Source: Candidatus Nanopelagicales bacterium (GTDB taxonomy: Bacteria > Actinomycetota > Actinomycetes > S36-B12 > GCA-2699445). From it: DNA of 53,276 nucleotides. The DNA is taken from NCBI GenBank assembly GCA_030700225.1, contig JAUYJT010000068.1:1-53276 (forward strand). Direction: 5' to 3'. The translations under genes were made by a program, and so were the position numbers. Under the pieces are notes generated by a model. It was not told where the DNA came from, ran no database searches, and saw nothing but the letters and a program-made list of their open reading frames with translations. Numbering within the stretch: position 1 is the first letter of the stretch; each line of letters opens with the position of its first letter. Of the stretch, positions 11,376-40,583 are shown piece by piece.

Positions 11376-11867
11376 CTACTCGTCAGGATCTCGCGGAGCA
11401 AGGCGGGCGAACCCCTCTAGATGGCGGGTGGATTCCCCCCGCGCCAGCCGCCAGCGCCACTCCTCGGTAATGGCGCGAGCGAACCCAAGCTCCAAGATGG
11501 TGTTGAAGTCGCCGTCGGCGTGAATCAGGACAGCGCCCAGGATCTGGTCGAGAACTTCTGACGTGACCGATGCCACCGGTATCCGTCCGGCCAGGTAGAT
11601 GTCGCCCTCGCGGTCCAGGCAGTAGGCGATCCCGAGCATCTTCAAGTTCCGCTCCAACAGCCAGCGATAGACGACCGCGTGGTTCTCATCAGGGCGACGG
11701 GCGACGAATGCGTTCACTCCGACCGAGTGAGTCCCGACCACTAGGGACACCGTCGTGCGCAGCTTGGTCTCCCCCTCAAGGACCACGACGAAGTGACCGG
11801 GAGTTGGCTCCTCCGCCGCCAGACCAGCGTCGCTGAGGTACTGGCGGATCACGTCTACAGCTGACAC
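11376..11867 (-). CDS. YbjN-domain protein
   Basis: A 163-aa protein with the YbjN / bacterial sensory-transduction-regulator fold (VVVLEGETKLRTTVSLVVG early, YRWLLERNLKMLGIAYCLD in the middle, DQILGAVLIHADGDFNTILE late), related to type III secretion chaperone folds. In mycobacteria the homologue lies between mshA and gpm1 as here. A GTG start follows GAAGGGCAGAGG. It is 14 nt downstream of mshA and is likely transcribed with it. The biochemical role is unknown. Confidence 0.8.
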   Translation of the reverse strand: MSAVDVIRQYLSDAGLAAEEPTPGHFVVVLEGETKLRTTVSLVVGTHSVGVNAFVARRPDENHAVVYRWLLERNLKMLGIAYCLDREGDIYLAGRIPVASVTSEVLDQILGAVLIHADGDFNTILELGFARAITEEWRWRLARGESTRHLEGFARLAPRDPDE

Positions 11868-11881
11868 GCCTCTGCCCTTCT

Positions 11882-13174
11882 CTAGTTGGCCACGACGAGA
11901 CCGGGGTCCGCATGTCGGGCGATCGCATCACGGTATTGCGCGAGAGTCGCAGCCGCCGTGGCAGCCCAGCTGAACTGGCTGGCATATGCCACAGCGGGCC
12001 CGGACATAGCGTCAAGCCGGGACCTATCGACAATGACGCTGGTCAGGATGTCAGCCCAATCGCTTTCGCCATGACCGTCAATCAAGAAGCCGCCTTCCCC
12101 GTCTCGCACGGCAGTGCGCAGGCCGCCAACACCAGCGGCGAGGACGGGAGTACCGCATGCCTGGGACTCCAGCGCCACGAGCCCGAATGACTCGGAGAAT
12201 GACGGCACAACCACAAGATCGGCAGCCCCGTACCACTTGGCCAGCGTTGCGGCATCGGTCGGTGGTTGGAACCTGACCAGGTCCTCGATCCCGGACCTGG
12301 CAACCAACCCCGACAGCCCGTCCATGTACCCAGTGCCACCCGACGGTCCGCCGCATACGACAACGCCAAGCCGTCGCCTCAACTCTGGCATGGCTTCCAC
12401 AACGCGGGCAACGGCCCTCAATAGCAAGTCGGGTGCCTTCAGGGGCTGGATCCTGCCCACGAAGAGAATCAGGAACTGGTCGTCCGGGATGCCGAGCCTA
12501 CGGCGATCCGCTGCCCGGTCGCCGGGCCGGAACACAGACACATCCACGCCCGGATGCACTACTGATATCGAACCGGGATCAGCACCGTAGTGATTCACAA
12601 GGTCTGCCGCTTCGTCGGCCGTGTTCGCGATGAATCGATCCGCGACACCTGCGAGTTGTTCCTCGGCGAGGACCCGCATCCGCGGCTCCGGCTTGTCCCG
12701 CTCGGTCAGTGCCGCGTTCTTGACCTTCGCCATTGTGTGCATGGTGTGCACCATCGGGACGTCCCAACGCTCGGCGGCCAGCCATGCCGCCTGCCCCGAC
12801 AACCAGTAGTGGCTGTGCACTACGTCGTAGGGGGGCCACGCGCCATTGGATTGCCTCCGCAGCAGCTCCGATGTGAACGCGCAGACCTGCCCAGGAAGAT
12901 CCTCCTTAGGCACACCCTGAAGGGGCCCCGCGGACAGGTGATGGACGCGAACGCCTGGCCAGGGGTGAACAACATCCGGCTGACGATCTGACGTGGCACG
13001 CGTGAACACGTCGACTTCGGCTCCCGCCGTCGCCATGCGCTCGGCGGTGCGCGCGATGTAGACGTTCATGCCGCCCGCGTCCCCTGTCCCCGGCTGGTCG
13101 AGCGGCGAAGTGTGCAGACTCACCACAGCGACACGCAGGGCTCGATCAGCGAGCCGAGAAGCAAGCATCGTCAT
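11882..13174 (-). CDS. mshA: D-inositol-3-phosphate glycosyltransferase (mycothiol step 1)
   Basis: A 430-aa GT4 glycosyltransferase transferring GlcNAc from UDP-GlcNAc to inositol-3-phosphate, the first step of mycothiol synthesis. Diagnostic segments: SLHTSPLDQPGTGDAGGMNVY (N-terminal acceptor domain), DVVHSHYWLSGQAAW, then the C-terminal Rossmann domain with ILFVGRIQPLKAPDLLLRAV and the EX7E-type region VVVPSFSESFGLVALEAQ-like (here SESFGLVALESQACG). The length matches mycobacterial MshA (480 aa with an extended tail) and corynebacterial MshA (418 aa). mshD is also in this window. Confidence 0.95.
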   Translation of the reverse strand: MTMLASRLADRALRVAVVSLHTSPLDQPGTGDAGGMNVYIARTAERMATAGAEVDVFTRATSDRQPDVVHPWPGVRVHHLSAGPLQGVPKEDLPGQVCAFTSELLRRQSNGAWPPYDVVHSHYWLSGQAAWLAAERWDVPMVHTMHTMAKVKNAALTERDKPEPRMRVLAEEQLAGVADRFIANTADEAADLVNHYGADPGSISVVHPGVDVSVFRPGDRAADRRRLGIPDDQFLILFVGRIQPLKAPDLLLRAVARVVEAMPELRRRLGVVVCGGPSGGTGYMDGLSGLVARSGIEDLVRFQPPTDAATLAKWYGAADLVVVPSFSESFGLVALESQACGTPVLAAGVGGLRTAVRDGEGGFLIDGHGESDWADILTSVIVDRSRLDAMSGPAVAYASQFSWAATAAATLAQYRDAIARHADPGLVVAN

Positions 13175-35822: not shown

Positions 35823-36104
35823 TCACCGGCGCCAGGTCAGCTCGGCCATCCTGGGTCGCAGATCGAAAAGGTAGATCAAAGCGACGACGATGCCTGCGAT
35901 GCCCACCAGCCCGACGGGATCGAATAGCAACCCGGTCAAGACGCTCACGCCCGTAAGGGCCACCCAAAGACCCTTGTTCTGCCGACCGATCGCGGGAAAC
36001 GCCCTCGAGGGTCGGCGGAGGCAGTCAAGGAAAGCCCAGGCCTTCAACACCAGGAACACGAGCCAGATCAGCCCCAGGACAGAAGCTTGAGCTTGCCAAA
36101 ACAT
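35823..36104 (-). CDS. DUF2516-family membrane protein
   Basis: A 93-aa protein with two membrane helices (about 6-27 and 48-80) and a conserved FLDCLRRPSRAFPAIGRQNKGLW loop between them, matching DUF2516 (mycobacterial homologue next to hbhA). Function unknown. Its upstream neighbour is a Lys/Ala-rich protein, preserving the mycobacterial hbhA-DUF2516 order. Confidence 0.85.
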   Translation of the reverse strand: MFWQAQASVLGLIWLVFLVLKAWAFLDCLRRPSRAFPAIGRQNKGLWVALTGVSVLTGLLFDPVGLVGIAGIVVALIYLFDLRPRMAELTWRR

Positions 36105-36212: not shown

Positions 36213-36647
36213 CTACCTGCCCAGGGCCTCGCGAATGAAAGCCACGACCTTCGCGACACGCTCCCGCAGGTCCTGGACCAGATCTTGAGCCTTCGACGGA
36301 GCGGTCCCGACCGCGTCCTGTACTCCATCGACTGTCCGCGCCAAAGACGCGCGCAAGTCTTCGGGCTTCGGCAACTCCAGCCCAGACAGGCGACTCCACC
36401 CATTGCTTGATGCGGGGGCTGCCGCGACCGGGGCGGCGGACGCCCTCGCAGGCTTTCGGCTGGCGGCAGAAGTCTTCGGCGCGGCAGAAGTCTTGGAGGT
36501 GGCTGTCTTCTTCCGCGCGGCGCGCGCCGCCGGACTCACCTTCTTTGTCGCCGACGACTTGGTCGCGGCTCGCTTGCGCGCTGGGGCCTTGCGCGGGGGC
36601 TTAGCGGCGATCGGATCCGGTGACTTCGACTCAGGACCAGTACTCAT
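36213..36647 (-). CDS. Lys/Ala/Pro-rich HbhA-like or histone-like protein
   Basis: A 144-aa basic protein: residues 15-80 are low-complexity Lys/Ala/Ser/Pro runs (KAPARKRAATKSSATKKV) like histone H1-type tails, and the C-terminal part (about 88-144) is helical and amphipathic (PEDLRASLARTVDGVQDAVG). Mycobacterial HbhA has the Lys/Ala/Pro repeats at the C-terminus, here they are N-terminal, so the domain order is reversed relative to HbhA. It may bind DNA or surface heparan-like ligands; no direct evidence. Lies 42 nt downstream of the RsiG-like gene. Confidence 0.55.
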   Translation of the reverse strand: MSTGPESKSPDPIAAKPPRKAPARKRAATKSSATKKVSPAARAARKKTATSKTSAAPKTSAASRKPARASAAPVAAAPASSNGWSRLSGLELPKPEDLRASLARTVDGVQDAVGTAPSKAQDLVQDLRERVAKVVAFIREALGR

Positions 36648-36689: not shown

Positions 36690-37232
36690 TCACGATGTTG
36701 GGTAGGCCTCTCCACTGCGATAGCGCCTGCCGAGCTCAGCGGACAAAGCTTCAATGACTTCATGCACCTTGTTGCGCACCGACGATACGTCGCGCTCTTC
36801 GGCTCGCAGCAGAAGCAGCGCCGCCTCAGCCTTGGCCTTCGTCATTGTCGCCGGGTCGGAAAGCCCAACATCAGTCATGAGCCGTTCCGCGCGCCGCCTG
36901 CGCGCTCCCGTCCCCCCGGACTCGCTGGTGAGCCGTCGCGCGGACCCACTGCTTCTTGGCCCGGACCCAGTCAGAATCTGCGTGAGCCCCTCCACAAGTT
37001 CCTGCGTGCCTTTGACACCCGAGCCCAAGCCGTCGGTGAGTATGTCGATGCGTCCCTGGAGCATCCGTCGTACGTACGACAGATCCGCCTCCTCGTCCAT
37101 CGCCTGGCCGCGCCGATCGCGCAACTCGGCCAGCGTGAGCCTGGGCAGATCCATGACGAAACTCCGATCCAAGATGCGGTCGATTCTCCTTCGACCGCCA
37201 GGGATCGGATCCCCGGGTTTCGGACTTGACAC
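36690..37232 (-). CDS. RsiG-like c-di-GMP-binding anti-sigma-type protein
   Basis: A 180-aa protein with two long helices. The c-di-GMP signature of the Streptomyces anti-sigma RsiG, E-x3-S-x2-R-x3-Q-x3-D, is present exactly once as E48-S52-R55-Q59-D63 (in EEADLSYVRRMLQGRIDIL), and a second, degenerate copy E146-S150-R153-H157-E161 lies in the second helix (EERDVSSVRNKVHE). RsiG holds the sporulation sigma WhiG when c-di-GMP is bound. No WhiG-type sigma is in the window. Start is GTG. Divergent from the DUF4388 gene, with 123 bp between. Confidence 0.75.
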   Translation of the reverse strand: MSSPKPGDPIPGGRRRIDRILDRSFVMDLPRLTLAELRDRRGQAMDEEADLSYVRRMLQGRIDILTDGLGSGVKGTQELVEGLTQILTGSGPRSSGSARRLTSESGGTGARRRRAERLMTDVGLSDPATMTKAKAEAALLLLRAEERDVSSVRNKVHEVIEALSAELGRRYRSGEAYPTS

Positions 37233-37355
37233 GGATCACCTCCGACACGAGCCTAGCCATTCTCTCGCCCGCCGTGCACGCAGACCGGTTGGGGTCAAGT
37301 AAACCGCCAACACAGCCGATCACACAGATTGGGGGACGACACTCAGGAGGTCACG

Positions 37356-38417
37356 TTGCACCCCAACTCCGATCAGATCGCCACGTTCGAAAACGAACTG
37401 CTGGACCTAGTCGCGCAAGGAGCGTCCGGTCGGCTCATCATCAGCGGACCCGACGCCGACACCGGTTGGATTTGGCTCCGGGACGGCCACGTGTGCGGAG
37501 TCTCCTCCGCTTGCCGCACGCCACTGCTCGCGGCCCGACTCGCGGCGTTTGGGGTCCTTTCCCAGGCTCAGATAGCCAACGCCCTGAGCGCGACCCGGGC
37601 GTCACCGGGCACCCGACTCATTGATGTGCTGCTAAGCAAGCGAGGCGTCCCTGAGGACTTCCTGACTGAGTTCGCTACAGCGACCGCTGGCGAACACCTC
37701 GCGGTGGCTCTTCGCCTGGGAGTGTCATCGACTCGGTTCGAAAACGGTCGCCTGCCGCAGACGAGCACGCTGCTCCTCCCGGCCATGCGCGTGCTGGAGC
37801 AGGCGGCTAGATACCGCGACGCGGCCCAACCGCGACAGTCCCGGCTTTTGGCCGTAGACACCGGCGCGCACGAAGGTCTCGCGACGATCCAGCAAGCGAT
37901 CGTGAGCAGCTGCGTCGGAGACGTTGACACTGTTGGGATCGCCGATCGATGCGGACTGACAATCCTTGAGGCCGTGGAGCTAGTGGAACCTCTCATCGAG
38001 AGCGGCATGATCCTTGCGATAGGCCGGGACTCCGAGGAGCGCGACGTCGACCTTTCAACCCACCCCGTGATGGCGGCCCATGGCTTTGGTGGCGACGAGC
38101 TAGCTGAGCAACTGGCAGAAGCCGCAGCTGACTCGGGCACCCTAGCGAACCCTGAACCCACCACGGCCGAAACCCCGCCAAGGGCGACTCGGGAAACGGC
38201 GTCCCAAGGCCAGCGCGATCAGCCCGCGACACCAGAGCCGACTTCGGCACCTGCGAGACCCCCAAGAGGCGGATTGAGCAACAGAGAGGTCTTCCGGGAG
38301 TTGCATTCGCTCGGAACCAGGGTGACCGAACCGGCGCCTGACAAAGAGGCCCCCACGAAGGAGCGGGCAGACGCCAAGGCATCCGATGCCAAGCGCCGCA
38401 AGCGCTTCGGCCGATGA
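37356..38417 (+). CDS. DUF4388 (PATAN)-domain protein
   Basis: A 353-aa protein: N-terminal DUF4388/PATAN domain (about 8-90: ASGRLIISGPDADTGWIWLRDGHVCG), a middle helical region with HTH-like segments (GVPEDFLTEFATATAGEHL; 190-220), then a Pro/Ala-rich charged tail from about 250 (TTAETPPRATRETASQG ... KRRKRFGR). PATAN domains are found in two-component-type regulators, for example with receiver domains, but none is present here. TTG 37356 is chosen because AGGAGG lies five bases upstream. Divergent from the RsiG-like gene. Confidence 0.65.
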   Translation: MHPNSDQIATFENELLDLVAQGASGRLIISGPDADTGWIWLRDGHVCGVSSACRTPLLAARLAAFGVLSQAQIANALSATRASPGTRLIDVLLSKRGVPEDFLTEFATATAGEHLAVALRLGVSSTRFENGRLPQTSTLLLPAMRVLEQAARYRDAAQPRQSRLLAVDTGAHEGLATIQQAIVSSCVGDVDTVGIADRCGLTILEAVELVEPLIESGMILAIGRDSEERDVDLSTHPVMAAHGFGGDELAEQLAEAAADSGTLANPEPTTAETPPRATRETASQGQRDQPATPEPTSAPARPPRGGLSNREVFRELHSLGTRVTEPAPDKEAPTKERADAKASDAKRRKRFGR

Positions 38418-38423
38418 CGGGCA

Positions 38424-39467
38424 TCAGGCCACGACGACACACACCTGAGTGGCCGTCGCGCCATCCACCTCGACCTCAGCGTCCGACGGGACAGATCGCT
38501 TGACAACCGCCGTAGAGATCGGACCCAGCTCGAAGTGGATCGCCGAAGTCGCGATCCAACCGACAGAACTGCCACCCACCCTCACCACGGTCCCGTGCGC
38601 AGGTAGCTCGTCGCTAGACCCCAAATGCAGCAGCACAAGCCGCCGGGGAGGCCGACCCATGTTGTGAGTTCGCGCCACTGCCTCCTGGCCCCTATAGCAA
38701 CCTTTCGCCAGATGCACGGCCGATCCAATCCATCCGACCTCGTGCGGCAGGGATCGGGCATCGGTCTCCATTCCGATGCGCGGGACCGCAGCAGCGACTC
38801 GAACCGCCTCCCACGCCCACGTCCCAGCCCGGTGGGGGGCCGCCTGGAGTGCGGCCGCGATGCTGCGTCGCGGCATCACCCACTCGCGGGCCGGGAAGAC
38901 GCCGGGCCGATTCGGCACGTATCTGTCAGCCGAGCCGCCACGGTCAGCGCCCGACTCAGTCAGGCCTGTTCCCGCGAACTCGGCAGGAGCGGTCCAATGG
39001 ACCACGGACTCAGGACGAACCGCCACCGATCGCTCACCGCTTAGATCTCCAAGCACCCCGAACTGCTCGGATGCGTCAATGACGTCGACGCTGAGCAAGA
39101 ACCGCATTGAATTCAGGTAGCCAACCAAGGCATGGACAGTGCCCGGCTCAACGATCAGCCAAGTGGCATCGCCGTCATCGACCAGATGAAGTTCGTGCTC
39201 CACTCGCCCATGCGGGGACAGGATCAGGGCCACTCGGCTCTCACCGGGAGGAAGCCGCGACACCTTCGCCGTCGTCAGATCGTCCAGCCAGGTCAGTCTG
39301 TCGGGCCCCTCTACACGGATCACGCCGCGGTCGGACAGATCGACAACCGCGGTGCCTTCAACCAGCCAGCGCTGCTCGCTCAGCGGATCGCCGAAGTGCC
39401 AGGCGACACCGGCGTCCGGGCCGCCCTCAGGCTGGGCGCACGCGTCTGGCAGGTCCAGGGAGTTCAT
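38424..39467 (-). CDS. ygfZ: YgfZ/GcvT-family folate-binding protein
   Basis: A 347-aa protein with the three-domain GcvT fold. The YgfZ signature K-G-C-Y-x-G-Q-E is seen as KGCYRGQEAVARTHNMG. In E. coli YgfZ supports iron-sulfur enzyme maturation with a tetrahydrofolate. It converges on the DUF4388 gene (6 nt between stops) and is 25 nt downstream of the Fur-family gene, so they may share a transcript. Confidence 0.9.
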   Translation of the reverse strand: MNSLDLPDACAQPEGGPDAGVAWHFGDPLSEQRWLVEGTAVVDLSDRGVIRVEGPDRLTWLDDLTTAKVSRLPPGESRVALILSPHGRVEHELHLVDDGDATWLIVEPGTVHALVGYLNSMRFLLSVDVIDASEQFGVLGDLSGERSVAVRPESVVHWTAPAEFAGTGLTESGADRGGSADRYVPNRPGVFPAREWVMPRRSIAAALQAAPHRAGTWAWEAVRVAAAVPRIGMETDARSLPHEVGWIGSAVHLAKGCYRGQEAVARTHNMGRPPRRLVLLHLGSSDELPAHGTVVRVGGSSVGWIATSAIHFELGPISTAVVKRSVPSDAEVEVDGATATQVCVVVA

Positions 39468-39491: not shown

Positions 39492-39941
39492 TCAGCCAAT
39501 CCCAGACGGGTCACCGGCGCATCGTGCGCAACGTCCGTAGACGGCGGCGTGTCTCACATCCGCCTGGAACCCAGCCGCCTGGGCAACGTCCTGCGAGAAC
39601 CGCTCCCCGACCTCGATCGGGGCACTCGTCACCGTTCCGCAGTCAACGCAGACCAGATGGATGTGCGGGGGCGCGTCGGCCCAGTGATAGGCGGGCGACC
39701 CAGTGCCGATGTGCGCATGCGTCACTAGGCCAACTTCCTGCAGGACCGCGAGCACGCGGTAAACCGTCGACAGGTTCAAGTTCGGTTCGACAGCGCGCGC
39801 CCTGGCCAGGATCGATTCGGGAGTCGCGTGCGACAGTGCCCGGACCGCATCCATCACAAGCTGCCGCTGCGCGGTCAGGCGGTACCCGCGGTCCCGCAGC
39901 CTCTTGGCCAAGTCGGATCCGCTCTGGGGAGATTCGCCCAT
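39492..39941 (-). CDS. Fur-family metalloregulator (Zur/FurB-like)
   Basis: A 149-aa regulator: winged HTH (about 10-75, LTAQRQLVMDAVRAL, STVYRVLAVLQE), then a metal domain with PPHIHLVC (the HxH and Cys sensing region) and two paired-Cys sites CVDC and CARC for structural zinc. The presence of two CxxC motifs points to Zur/FurB/PerR-like proteins; the metal is not certain. Start 39941 has GAAGGC upstream; 39962 has no SD and overlaps the nitrobindin gene by 11 nt. Co-transcribed with nitrobindin. Confidence 0.85.
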   Translation of the reverse strand: MGESPQSGSDLAKRLRDRGYRLTAQRQLVMDAVRALSHATPESILARARAVEPNLNLSTVYRVLAVLQEVGLVTHAHIGTGSPAYHWADAPPHIHLVCVDCGTVTSAPIEVGERFSQDVAQAAGFQADVRHAAVYGRCARCAGDPSGIG

Positions 39942-39951
39942 CAGACTGCCT

Positions 39952-40479
39952 TCATTCGCCAACAGGCAGGTCCGGCCGGAGCCTGGCAGCCAGGTGGTTC
40001 TGTAGCGGCAGCCCCATCGCCGCCATGTCGAATGTCCACATCAGATCGCCGTCGACTAGCCCGTACAGCCGGTGCCCGGCCGTGTATGGCTTGGCGTCGT
40101 GGGTCCTGGCGACCAAGTCCGTGCGAAGATCAGCTCGCGCGCCGGTGATCTTGTTCCCCGACATCTCGGTGACCTCCACGCTGCCTTCCCAAATCTCGGT
40201 GAACCCCGTGGGGTGCGCCAGAAGCAGCTCCAGCGAGCCGTCCGGTCCAGGACGGACGAAACCAACCTCTGTGGCTGCCTTGCGGATCCGATTGCCCTGA
40301 TCGTCCAAGACCCACGATCGGGACCAGTAGCTCAGGAATGGGCGGCCGTCCGTGACGAAGCCAAGCTCCTGCCCGAACCGGAAATCCTCGATCGTTGGAT
40401 AGTGACCCGTGCCAACCCCGACCCAACGCCCGATCAGCCATGACAGCGGAATGAGTTCCTGGGGCAGAGCCTCGGACAC
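39952..40479 (-). CDS. Nitrobindin-like heme protein
   Basis: A 175-aa FABP-fold protein with GxWxGxG (IGRWVGVGTGHYPTIEDF), EVTEMSGNKITGA and the C-terminal heme-ligand region MAAMGLPLQNHLAARL in which His is expected to bind heme, as in mycobacterial nitrobindin (Rv2717c, 164 aa). Nitrobindins bind NO and may isomerise peroxynitrite. GTG 40479 follows the stop of a small ORF by two bases and gives a natural length; the longer start at 40530 is less likely. Confidence 0.85.
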   Translation of the reverse strand: MSEALPQELIPLSWLIGRWVGVGTGHYPTIEDFRFGQELGFVTDGRPFLSYWSRSWVLDDQGNRIRKAATEVGFVRPGPDGSLELLLAHPTGFTEIWEGSVEVTEMSGNKITGARADLRTDLVARTHDAKPYTAGHRLYGLVDGDLMWTFDMAAMGLPLQNHLAARLRPDLPVGE

Positions 40480-40481
40480 TG

Positions 40482-40583
40482 TCAGCTTTGGCCCTTGTAC
40501 AGCCTGGCCACGACCATGACCGCGAACCACGCGATCACAAGACCCATCACAACCAGCAACACTTCAAAGAAGACATCGACCAC
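40482..40583 (-). CDS. Small one-helix membrane protein upstream of nitrobindin
   Basis: A 33-aa ORF that translates as VVDVFFEVLLVVMGLVIAWF then AVMVVARLYKGQS, a single hydrophobic helix with a short basic end. The TGA is two bases before the nitrobindin GTG, so translation looks coupled. GTG start, no clear SD; unannotated by length filters. It could anchor or assist nitrobindin; that is a guess. Confidence 0.5.
   Translation of the reverse strand: MVDVFFEVLLVVMGLVIAWFAVMVVARLYKGQS

Follow-up and report, generated by a model that had tools for sequence, protein, structure and literature searches.

The gene at 36690..37232 on the reverse strand of the window (the whole 53,276-nt stretch of DNA that was analysed) encodes what family, fold and tree comparisons identify as a true RsiG-family member, an orthologue of Streptomyces RsiG in its ancestral locus, here called RsiG1. 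RsiG1 probably acts as a c-di-GMP-dependent anti-sigma factor of WhiG, which would be released at low c-di-GMP to transcribe genes with TCAA-N16-GCCGAT promoters, with a pili/PATAN module as the likely output rather than spores. New here are a conserved WhiG-type promoter at the divergent PATAN gene and an anciently distinct twin-motif paralogue, RsiG2. The literature searched does not describe this variant of the circuit, with its PATAN promoter, predicted pilus output and second twin-motif RsiG. The features of the locus are as follows.

35823..36104 (-), DUF2516 membrane protein, downstream neighbour (PF10724, E 1e-25; near RsiG1 in 28 loci)
36213..36647 (-), Lys/Ala-rich basic protein (ORF; downstream of rsiG, 42 bp gap)
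36690..37232 (-), RsiG1, RsiG orthologue, 180 aa (PF22802, PDB 6pfj, AlphaFold model, tree clade)
36750..36797 (-), c-di-GMP motif 2, E146-S150-R153-H157-E161 (sequence; helix 132-173)
37044..37091 (-), c-di-GMP motif 1, E48-S52-R55-Q59-D63 (sequence; helix 34-70 of the model)
37295..37322 (+), predicted WhiG (sigma-28-type) promoter TCAA-N16-GCCGATCA of the PATAN gene (conservation, consensus resemblance)
37356..38417 (+), PATAN-domain (DUF4388) protein, predicted WhiG target (PF14332, E 4e-7)
38424..39467 (-), YgfZ/GcvT-like protein, synteny marker (PF01571)
39492..39962 (-), FUR-family regulator, synteny marker (PF01475)
39952..40530 (-), THAP4-like heme-binding protein, synteny marker (PF08768)

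Identity of RsiG1 and its locus

The original prediction had described an RsiG-like protein, and this description was borne out by the sole Pfam family found, PF22802 (RsiG; 87 bits, E 6.6e-25, cut-off 27), and by the nearest PDB entry, S. venezuelae RsiG/AmfC (6pfj/6pfv; E 1.2e-21, residues 15-177). The Pfam match comprised two stretches, both also recovered independently in a six-frame genome search (68 and 27 bits), while the single-motif RsiGs of Rubrobacter aligned mainly around the first helix. The start codon is a GTG at 37232, with GGAGGTGATCC just before it (GGAGGTG). In the AlphaFold model (mean pLDDT 76, above 90 in the helices and of low confidence in the flexible linker), two long helices spanning residues 34-70 and 132-173 each bear one motif and form an antiparallel two-helix coiled coil in agreement with the RsiG fold, and the only significant PDB matches of the model were the four RsiG chains of 6pfv/6pfj (TM 0.56-0.66). 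Moreover, RsiG1 grouped with Streptomyces-type RsiG, apart from RsiG2 (SH-aLRT 99).

Synteny was evaluated by tblastn of the neighbouring genes of the window over 102 rsiG loci. YgfZ was found in 81, THAP4 in 68 and FUR in 57 of them, with order and orientation mostly kept, and the arrangement rsiG-YgfZ-FUR-THAP4 was conserved in most Pseudonocardiaceae loci (e.g. Saccharopolyspora, Amycolatopsis and Saccharothrix) as well as in two 9-Mb genomes from a presumed Streptomyces family (G275 and G170; loci L292 and L293). The divergent PATAN gene and the Lys/Ala-rich ORF noted in the original prediction are both present, but its statement that the context differs from that of known RsiG loci did not hold: the order shared with Streptomyces-type genomes and Pseudonocardiaceae indicates an inherited rsiG locus, and the features peculiar to the source lineage and some relatives are limited to the PATAN insertion and the Lys/Ala-rich ORF. 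The divergent PATAN gene adjoins RsiG1 in 30 of the 102 loci, which belong to the taxonomic order of the source and its near relatives. The Lys/Ala-rich ORF, possibly co-transcribed with rsiG, was weakly conserved (tblastn match in six loci only). The plasmid search gave no match, and a scan of named genomes with a single-sequence query found nothing.

WhiG and c-di-GMP signalling in the source genome

The source genome (2.6 Mb, 96% complete) belongs to a lineage that stands close to freshwater Nanopelagicales. The absence of a WhiG sigma factor near the gene, as originally noted, is literally true at the locus, yet the genome search located one WhiG elsewhere (G000:C2:2319-2996), on another contig than RsiG1. 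This protein scored 378 bits against the 'sigma factor WhiG' equivalog model NF004935 (cut-off 343), had S. venezuelae WhiG as its best PDB match (E 9e-100) and keeps the PLVKYVAGR stretch, including K-x3-G-R; as in the S. venezuelae system, the partner therefore carries the c-di-GMP-contact residues, which in solved complexes are K57, G61 and R62 of WhiG (PMC8325347). The stretch was present in all WhiG-type sigma factors that could be read, with a Lys to Arg change in two. This change, at Lys57, was observed in both genomes of genus g29 (L125/G067 and L128/G058), where only RsiG2 was found. The second- and third-best sigma matches of the source genome (contigs C45 and C50) were rejected as RsiG partners, being without the K-x3-G-R residues.

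A search of the genome for WhiG/FliA-type sigma factors and diguanylate cyclases, proposed along with the original prediction, returned this WhiG and 12 GGDEF matches, so the case named there as refuting, a genome with neither a sigma partner nor diguanylate cyclases, does not apply. Given WhiG and the GGDEF proteins, the c-di-GMP control of a sigma factor suggested at the outset is the best reading, with RsiG1 as the putative c-di-GMP-armed anti-sigma factor of WhiG. Among 148 relatives, 35 encoded both RsiG and WhiG, five RsiG only, six WhiG only and 102 neither (Fisher p 2e-22), and RsiG1 is predicted to bind the WhiG of its own genome. In S. venezuelae, the GGDEF/EAL protein RmdB displaces RsiG from WhiG (PMC13232838), and the source genome likewise has GGDEF proteins. 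RsiG-WhiG has been called the only sigma/anti-sigma pair known as a c-di-GMP target (PMC8325347, 2021).

At high c-di-GMP, the two antiparallel helices of RsiG1, with one motif each, would bind a c-di-GMP dimer, and the loaded protein would hold WhiG; as c-di-GMP falls, WhiG would be set free to transcribe genes with TCAA-N16-GCCGAT promoters, giving rise to type IV pili together with a linked PATAN/Roadblock/GTPase module for surface motility. The twin-motif anti-sigma fold of RsiG1 resembles that of the RsiG-(c-di-GMP)2-WhiG complex of Streptomyces venezuelae (6PFJ, 6PFV). Unlike the single-motif, homodimeric RsiG of Rubrobacter radiotolerans, found in a (RsiG)2-(c-di-GMP)2-WhiG complex (7LQ2-7LQ4), RsiG1 carries two motifs and is expected to function as a monomer.

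A conserved WhiG-type promoter at the PATAN gene

According to the alignment, translation of the PATAN gene likely starts at a TTG codon at 37356, after AGGAGG at 37345-37350, while the ORF caller gives 37329. The element TCAA-N16-GCCGATCA sits in the gap between RsiG1 and the PATAN gene, ending 33 bp upstream of the start at 37356, and matches, except at two positions, the flagellar consensus applied to WhiG (TAAA and GCCGATAA, with a spacing of about 15-16). Of 26 non-redundant genomes, 20 had the pattern TCAA-N16-NCCGA within the 230 bp that precede PATAN; with any other spacing between 8 and 25 the count was 0 to 2, on the reverse strand it was 2, and shuffled upstream regions gave a mean of 0.06 and a maximum of 2. 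The sequence between and around the half-sites varies among genomes, a pattern indicative of selection on the element. It was missing in the remaining six genomes, including three of the source's own family. By its resemblance to the flagellar consensus, the element is probably read by WhiG, and its presence upstream of the divergent gene agrees with the control of neighbouring genes that had been predicted. This system differs from that of S. venezuelae in having a second RsiG-like paralogue and, inserted beside RsiG1, a PATAN gene preceded by a WhiG-type promoter, and the promoter beside the anti-sigma gene provides a testable target for a role of RsiG-WhiG outside Streptomyces and Rubrobacter.

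As in the cyanobacterial proteins PixG, PixE and LsiR, the PATAN domain would be tied to type IV pilus control; unlike these, the PATAN protein of the window showed no receiver domain, and the pilus link comes only through promoter type and the operon context of relatives. In addition, a helical stretch of the protein (37539-37673, +) gave a very weak match (E 0.06) to NF053729, a model of the MshEN-type c-di-GMP-binding motif, and the PATAN protein might itself sense c-di-GMP.

WhiG-type sites elsewhere and the predicted output

The strict WhiG consensus TAAA-N14-16-GCCGAWAW had zero matches in the source genome, where TAAA-N15-GCCGATAA with two mismatches allowed gave 24 matches, against 24 for the reversed-pattern control, and exact TCAA-N16-GCCGAT occurred at four sites only. 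The excess of this exact pattern was discarded as regulon evidence, since counts over 55 genomes exceeded the reversed control in those with and those without RsiG/WhiG alike and the excess therefore reflects composition; a global WhiG regulon is not established by genome-wide counts. No conclusion could be drawn from an unbiased locus scan for this class of promoter, as the gene caller places starts too far upstream.

The placement of the sites was examined for 40 exact TCAA-N16-GCCGAT sites from six related genomes. Seventeen of them lay outside genes, just upstream of starts, compared with 5.4% of random positions (p 7e-12, a value that overstates independence, given the relatedness of the six genomes and the presence of orthologous repeats among the sites). 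Exact sites were found upstream of pilT, followed by pilC (L357), of a prepilin-like/minor pilin gene after pilA (L362), of Roadblock-PATAN-GTPase operons in three genomes (L358, L352 and L373) and of a T2SSE/Tad-type ATPase gene (L343). Roadblock/GTPase pairs resemble MglA/MglB-type polarity control. In the source genome, the pilus contig (C59; pilB, pilT and pilA) carries TCAA-N16-GTCGATAA at C59:18305-18332, after pilA and before the minor pilin gene, in the same place as in L362. A WhiG-type site also preceded a row of zinc-ribbon, phosphoesterase, SRPBCC and ArsA-like genes in three relatives (L359, L366 and L372).

The sites before pilT, the minor pilin gene and the Roadblock-PATAN-GTPase genes in relatives thus make type IV pili, with the PATAN/Roadblock/GTPase surface-motility module, the likely output in place of sporulation. 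In cyanobacteria, PATAN proteins act on pili (PMC7690835), and control of type IV pili has been proposed for the RsiG-WhiG switch of the presumably non-sporulating Rubrobacter radiotolerans, to which the predicted WhiG control of pilus genes is similar, whereas the output in S. venezuelae is spores. The proposed pilus role would thereby be extended from single-motif to twin-motif RsiGs.

We regard it as unlikely that RsiG-WhiG runs a sporulation-like developmental programme here, as in Streptomyces, with pili not the main output. Such a programme would be in keeping with the Streptomyces-type synteny with which the locus was inherited, and with an orphan, atypical receiver-LuxR regulator that has a WhiG-type site ahead of it in five relatives (L350, L354, L355, L365 and L371). 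This regulator could be an orthologue of WhiI, which in Streptomyces is reportedly a known, classical WhiG target of the receiver-LuxR kind. The sites in relatives, however, sit at pilus and surface-motility genes, the genomes measure 2-4 Mb, and the near relatives come from lineages that are not known for spores.

The c-di-GMP motifs of RsiG1

Both motifs were found as originally described: motif 1 fits E-x3-S-x2-R-x3-Q-x3-D exactly, and the near-copy with His157 and Glu161 reads E146-S150-R153-H157-E161, i.e. ESRHE where S. venezuelae RsiG has ESRQD (Gln to His and Asp to Glu). Residues E48, S52, R55, E146, S150 and R153 were invariant in the alignment of 17 RsiG1 orthologues. Gln and His swap freely at the Gln positions, and H157 is ordinary among orthologues; E161 is unusual, most orthologues having Asp (His in L064 and Leu in L046). 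When two E-x3-S-x2-R-x3-[Q/H]-x3-D motifs were sought, motif 1 of RsiG1 was exact and motif 2 ended in Glu, Asp being the norm at this position but not invariant. Glu in motif 2, where nearly all homologues have the guanine-reading Asp, counts against the main reading. Even so, RsiG1 is predicted to bind c-di-GMP despite Glu161.

It is quite improbable, in our estimate, that RsiG1 has lost c-di-GMP sensing through Glu161 and His157 and persists as a constitutive or weak anti-sigma factor, leaving RsiG2 as the c-di-GMP sensor of WhiG. The rarity of E161 and the variation of this position in the two orthologues mentioned above would fit such a loss, as would the fact that RsiG2 keeps both motifs and co-occurs with WhiG even without RsiG1. 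Nevertheless, all of motif 1 and four of the five motif-2 positions are retained in acceptable form, Glu can in principle replace the Asp contact, and His at the motif 1 Gln position is common, a His-containing RsiG binding c-di-GMP (PMC8325347). For other RsiGs, the Kd for c-di-GMP is 6 to 25 uM when alone and sub-micromolar in the presence of WhiG. Direct action of RsiG1 on the PATAN protein or the pilus machinery, with no sigma factor involved, is very improbable: the PATAN adjacency in 30 loci and the action of cyanobacterial PATAN proteins on pili would favour it, but the tight co-occurrence with WhiG and the sigma-28-type PATAN promoter explain the adjacency without contact.

RsiG2, a second twin-motif paralogue

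A second paralogue in the source genome, RsiG2 (G000:C71:8594-9151, +; L102:5068-5664), has both motifs intact (ESRQD and ESRHD), and the best PDB match of its model was again RsiG, although weakly (E 0.008). RsiG1 and RsiG2 formed two separate clades (SH-aLRT 99). In 39 of 46 loci, RsiG2 is flanked by nth and crp, both within the taxonomic order of the source and in further families of the class. Both copies were present in 25 of the 40 RsiG-bearing relatives, with RsiG2 only in eight and RsiG1 only in seven, and WhiG was kept in six genomes of each of these last two groups. The locus points to a second RsiG family. In a published survey that covered 673 actinobacterial genomes, Acidothermus was the only one reported with a second RsiG (PMC8325347, 2021). 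Across the class, a WhiG/FliA-type sigma factor was found in 49 of 52 RsiG2-bearing genomes, against one of 12 without RsiG.

In family f91 (G551, G569, G583 and G608), a WhiG-type sigma gene lies 6-7 kb from an RsiG2-like gene, and in the G583 cluster (L302, G583:C77:4000-23900) the order is pilC ... pilB-rsiG2-pilT, pilM ... pilD, sigma. Two further loci, L301 and L303, are, like L302, type IV pilus clusters from outside the source's family that contain an RsiG2-like gene and a WhiG-type sigma gene. In G649, where no RsiG1 was found, the WhiG-type sigma and RsiG2-like genes are divergent neighbours (L304:10780-11499, -, and 11450-12160, +). We see an even chance that two anciently separate twin-motif RsiG lineages of Actinomycetes both serve WhiG-family sigma factors, with one sigma gated by two c-di-GMP-armed anti-sigma factors, and that this switch governs type IV pili and the PATAN/Roadblock/GTPase motility module.

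WhiG-type sites occurred upstream in only seven of 40 RsiG2 loci, so autoregulation of RsiG2 is not proposed as a general feature. G061, G052 and G048 have additional, diverged copies of the RsiG2 kind at positions other than nth-crp (L099, L101 and L086), those of L099 and L101 having lost motif residues. Finally, RsiG2 lies in line with crp, across a gap of 74 bp, an arrangement that suggests possible crosstalk between c-di-GMP and the Crp regulator.
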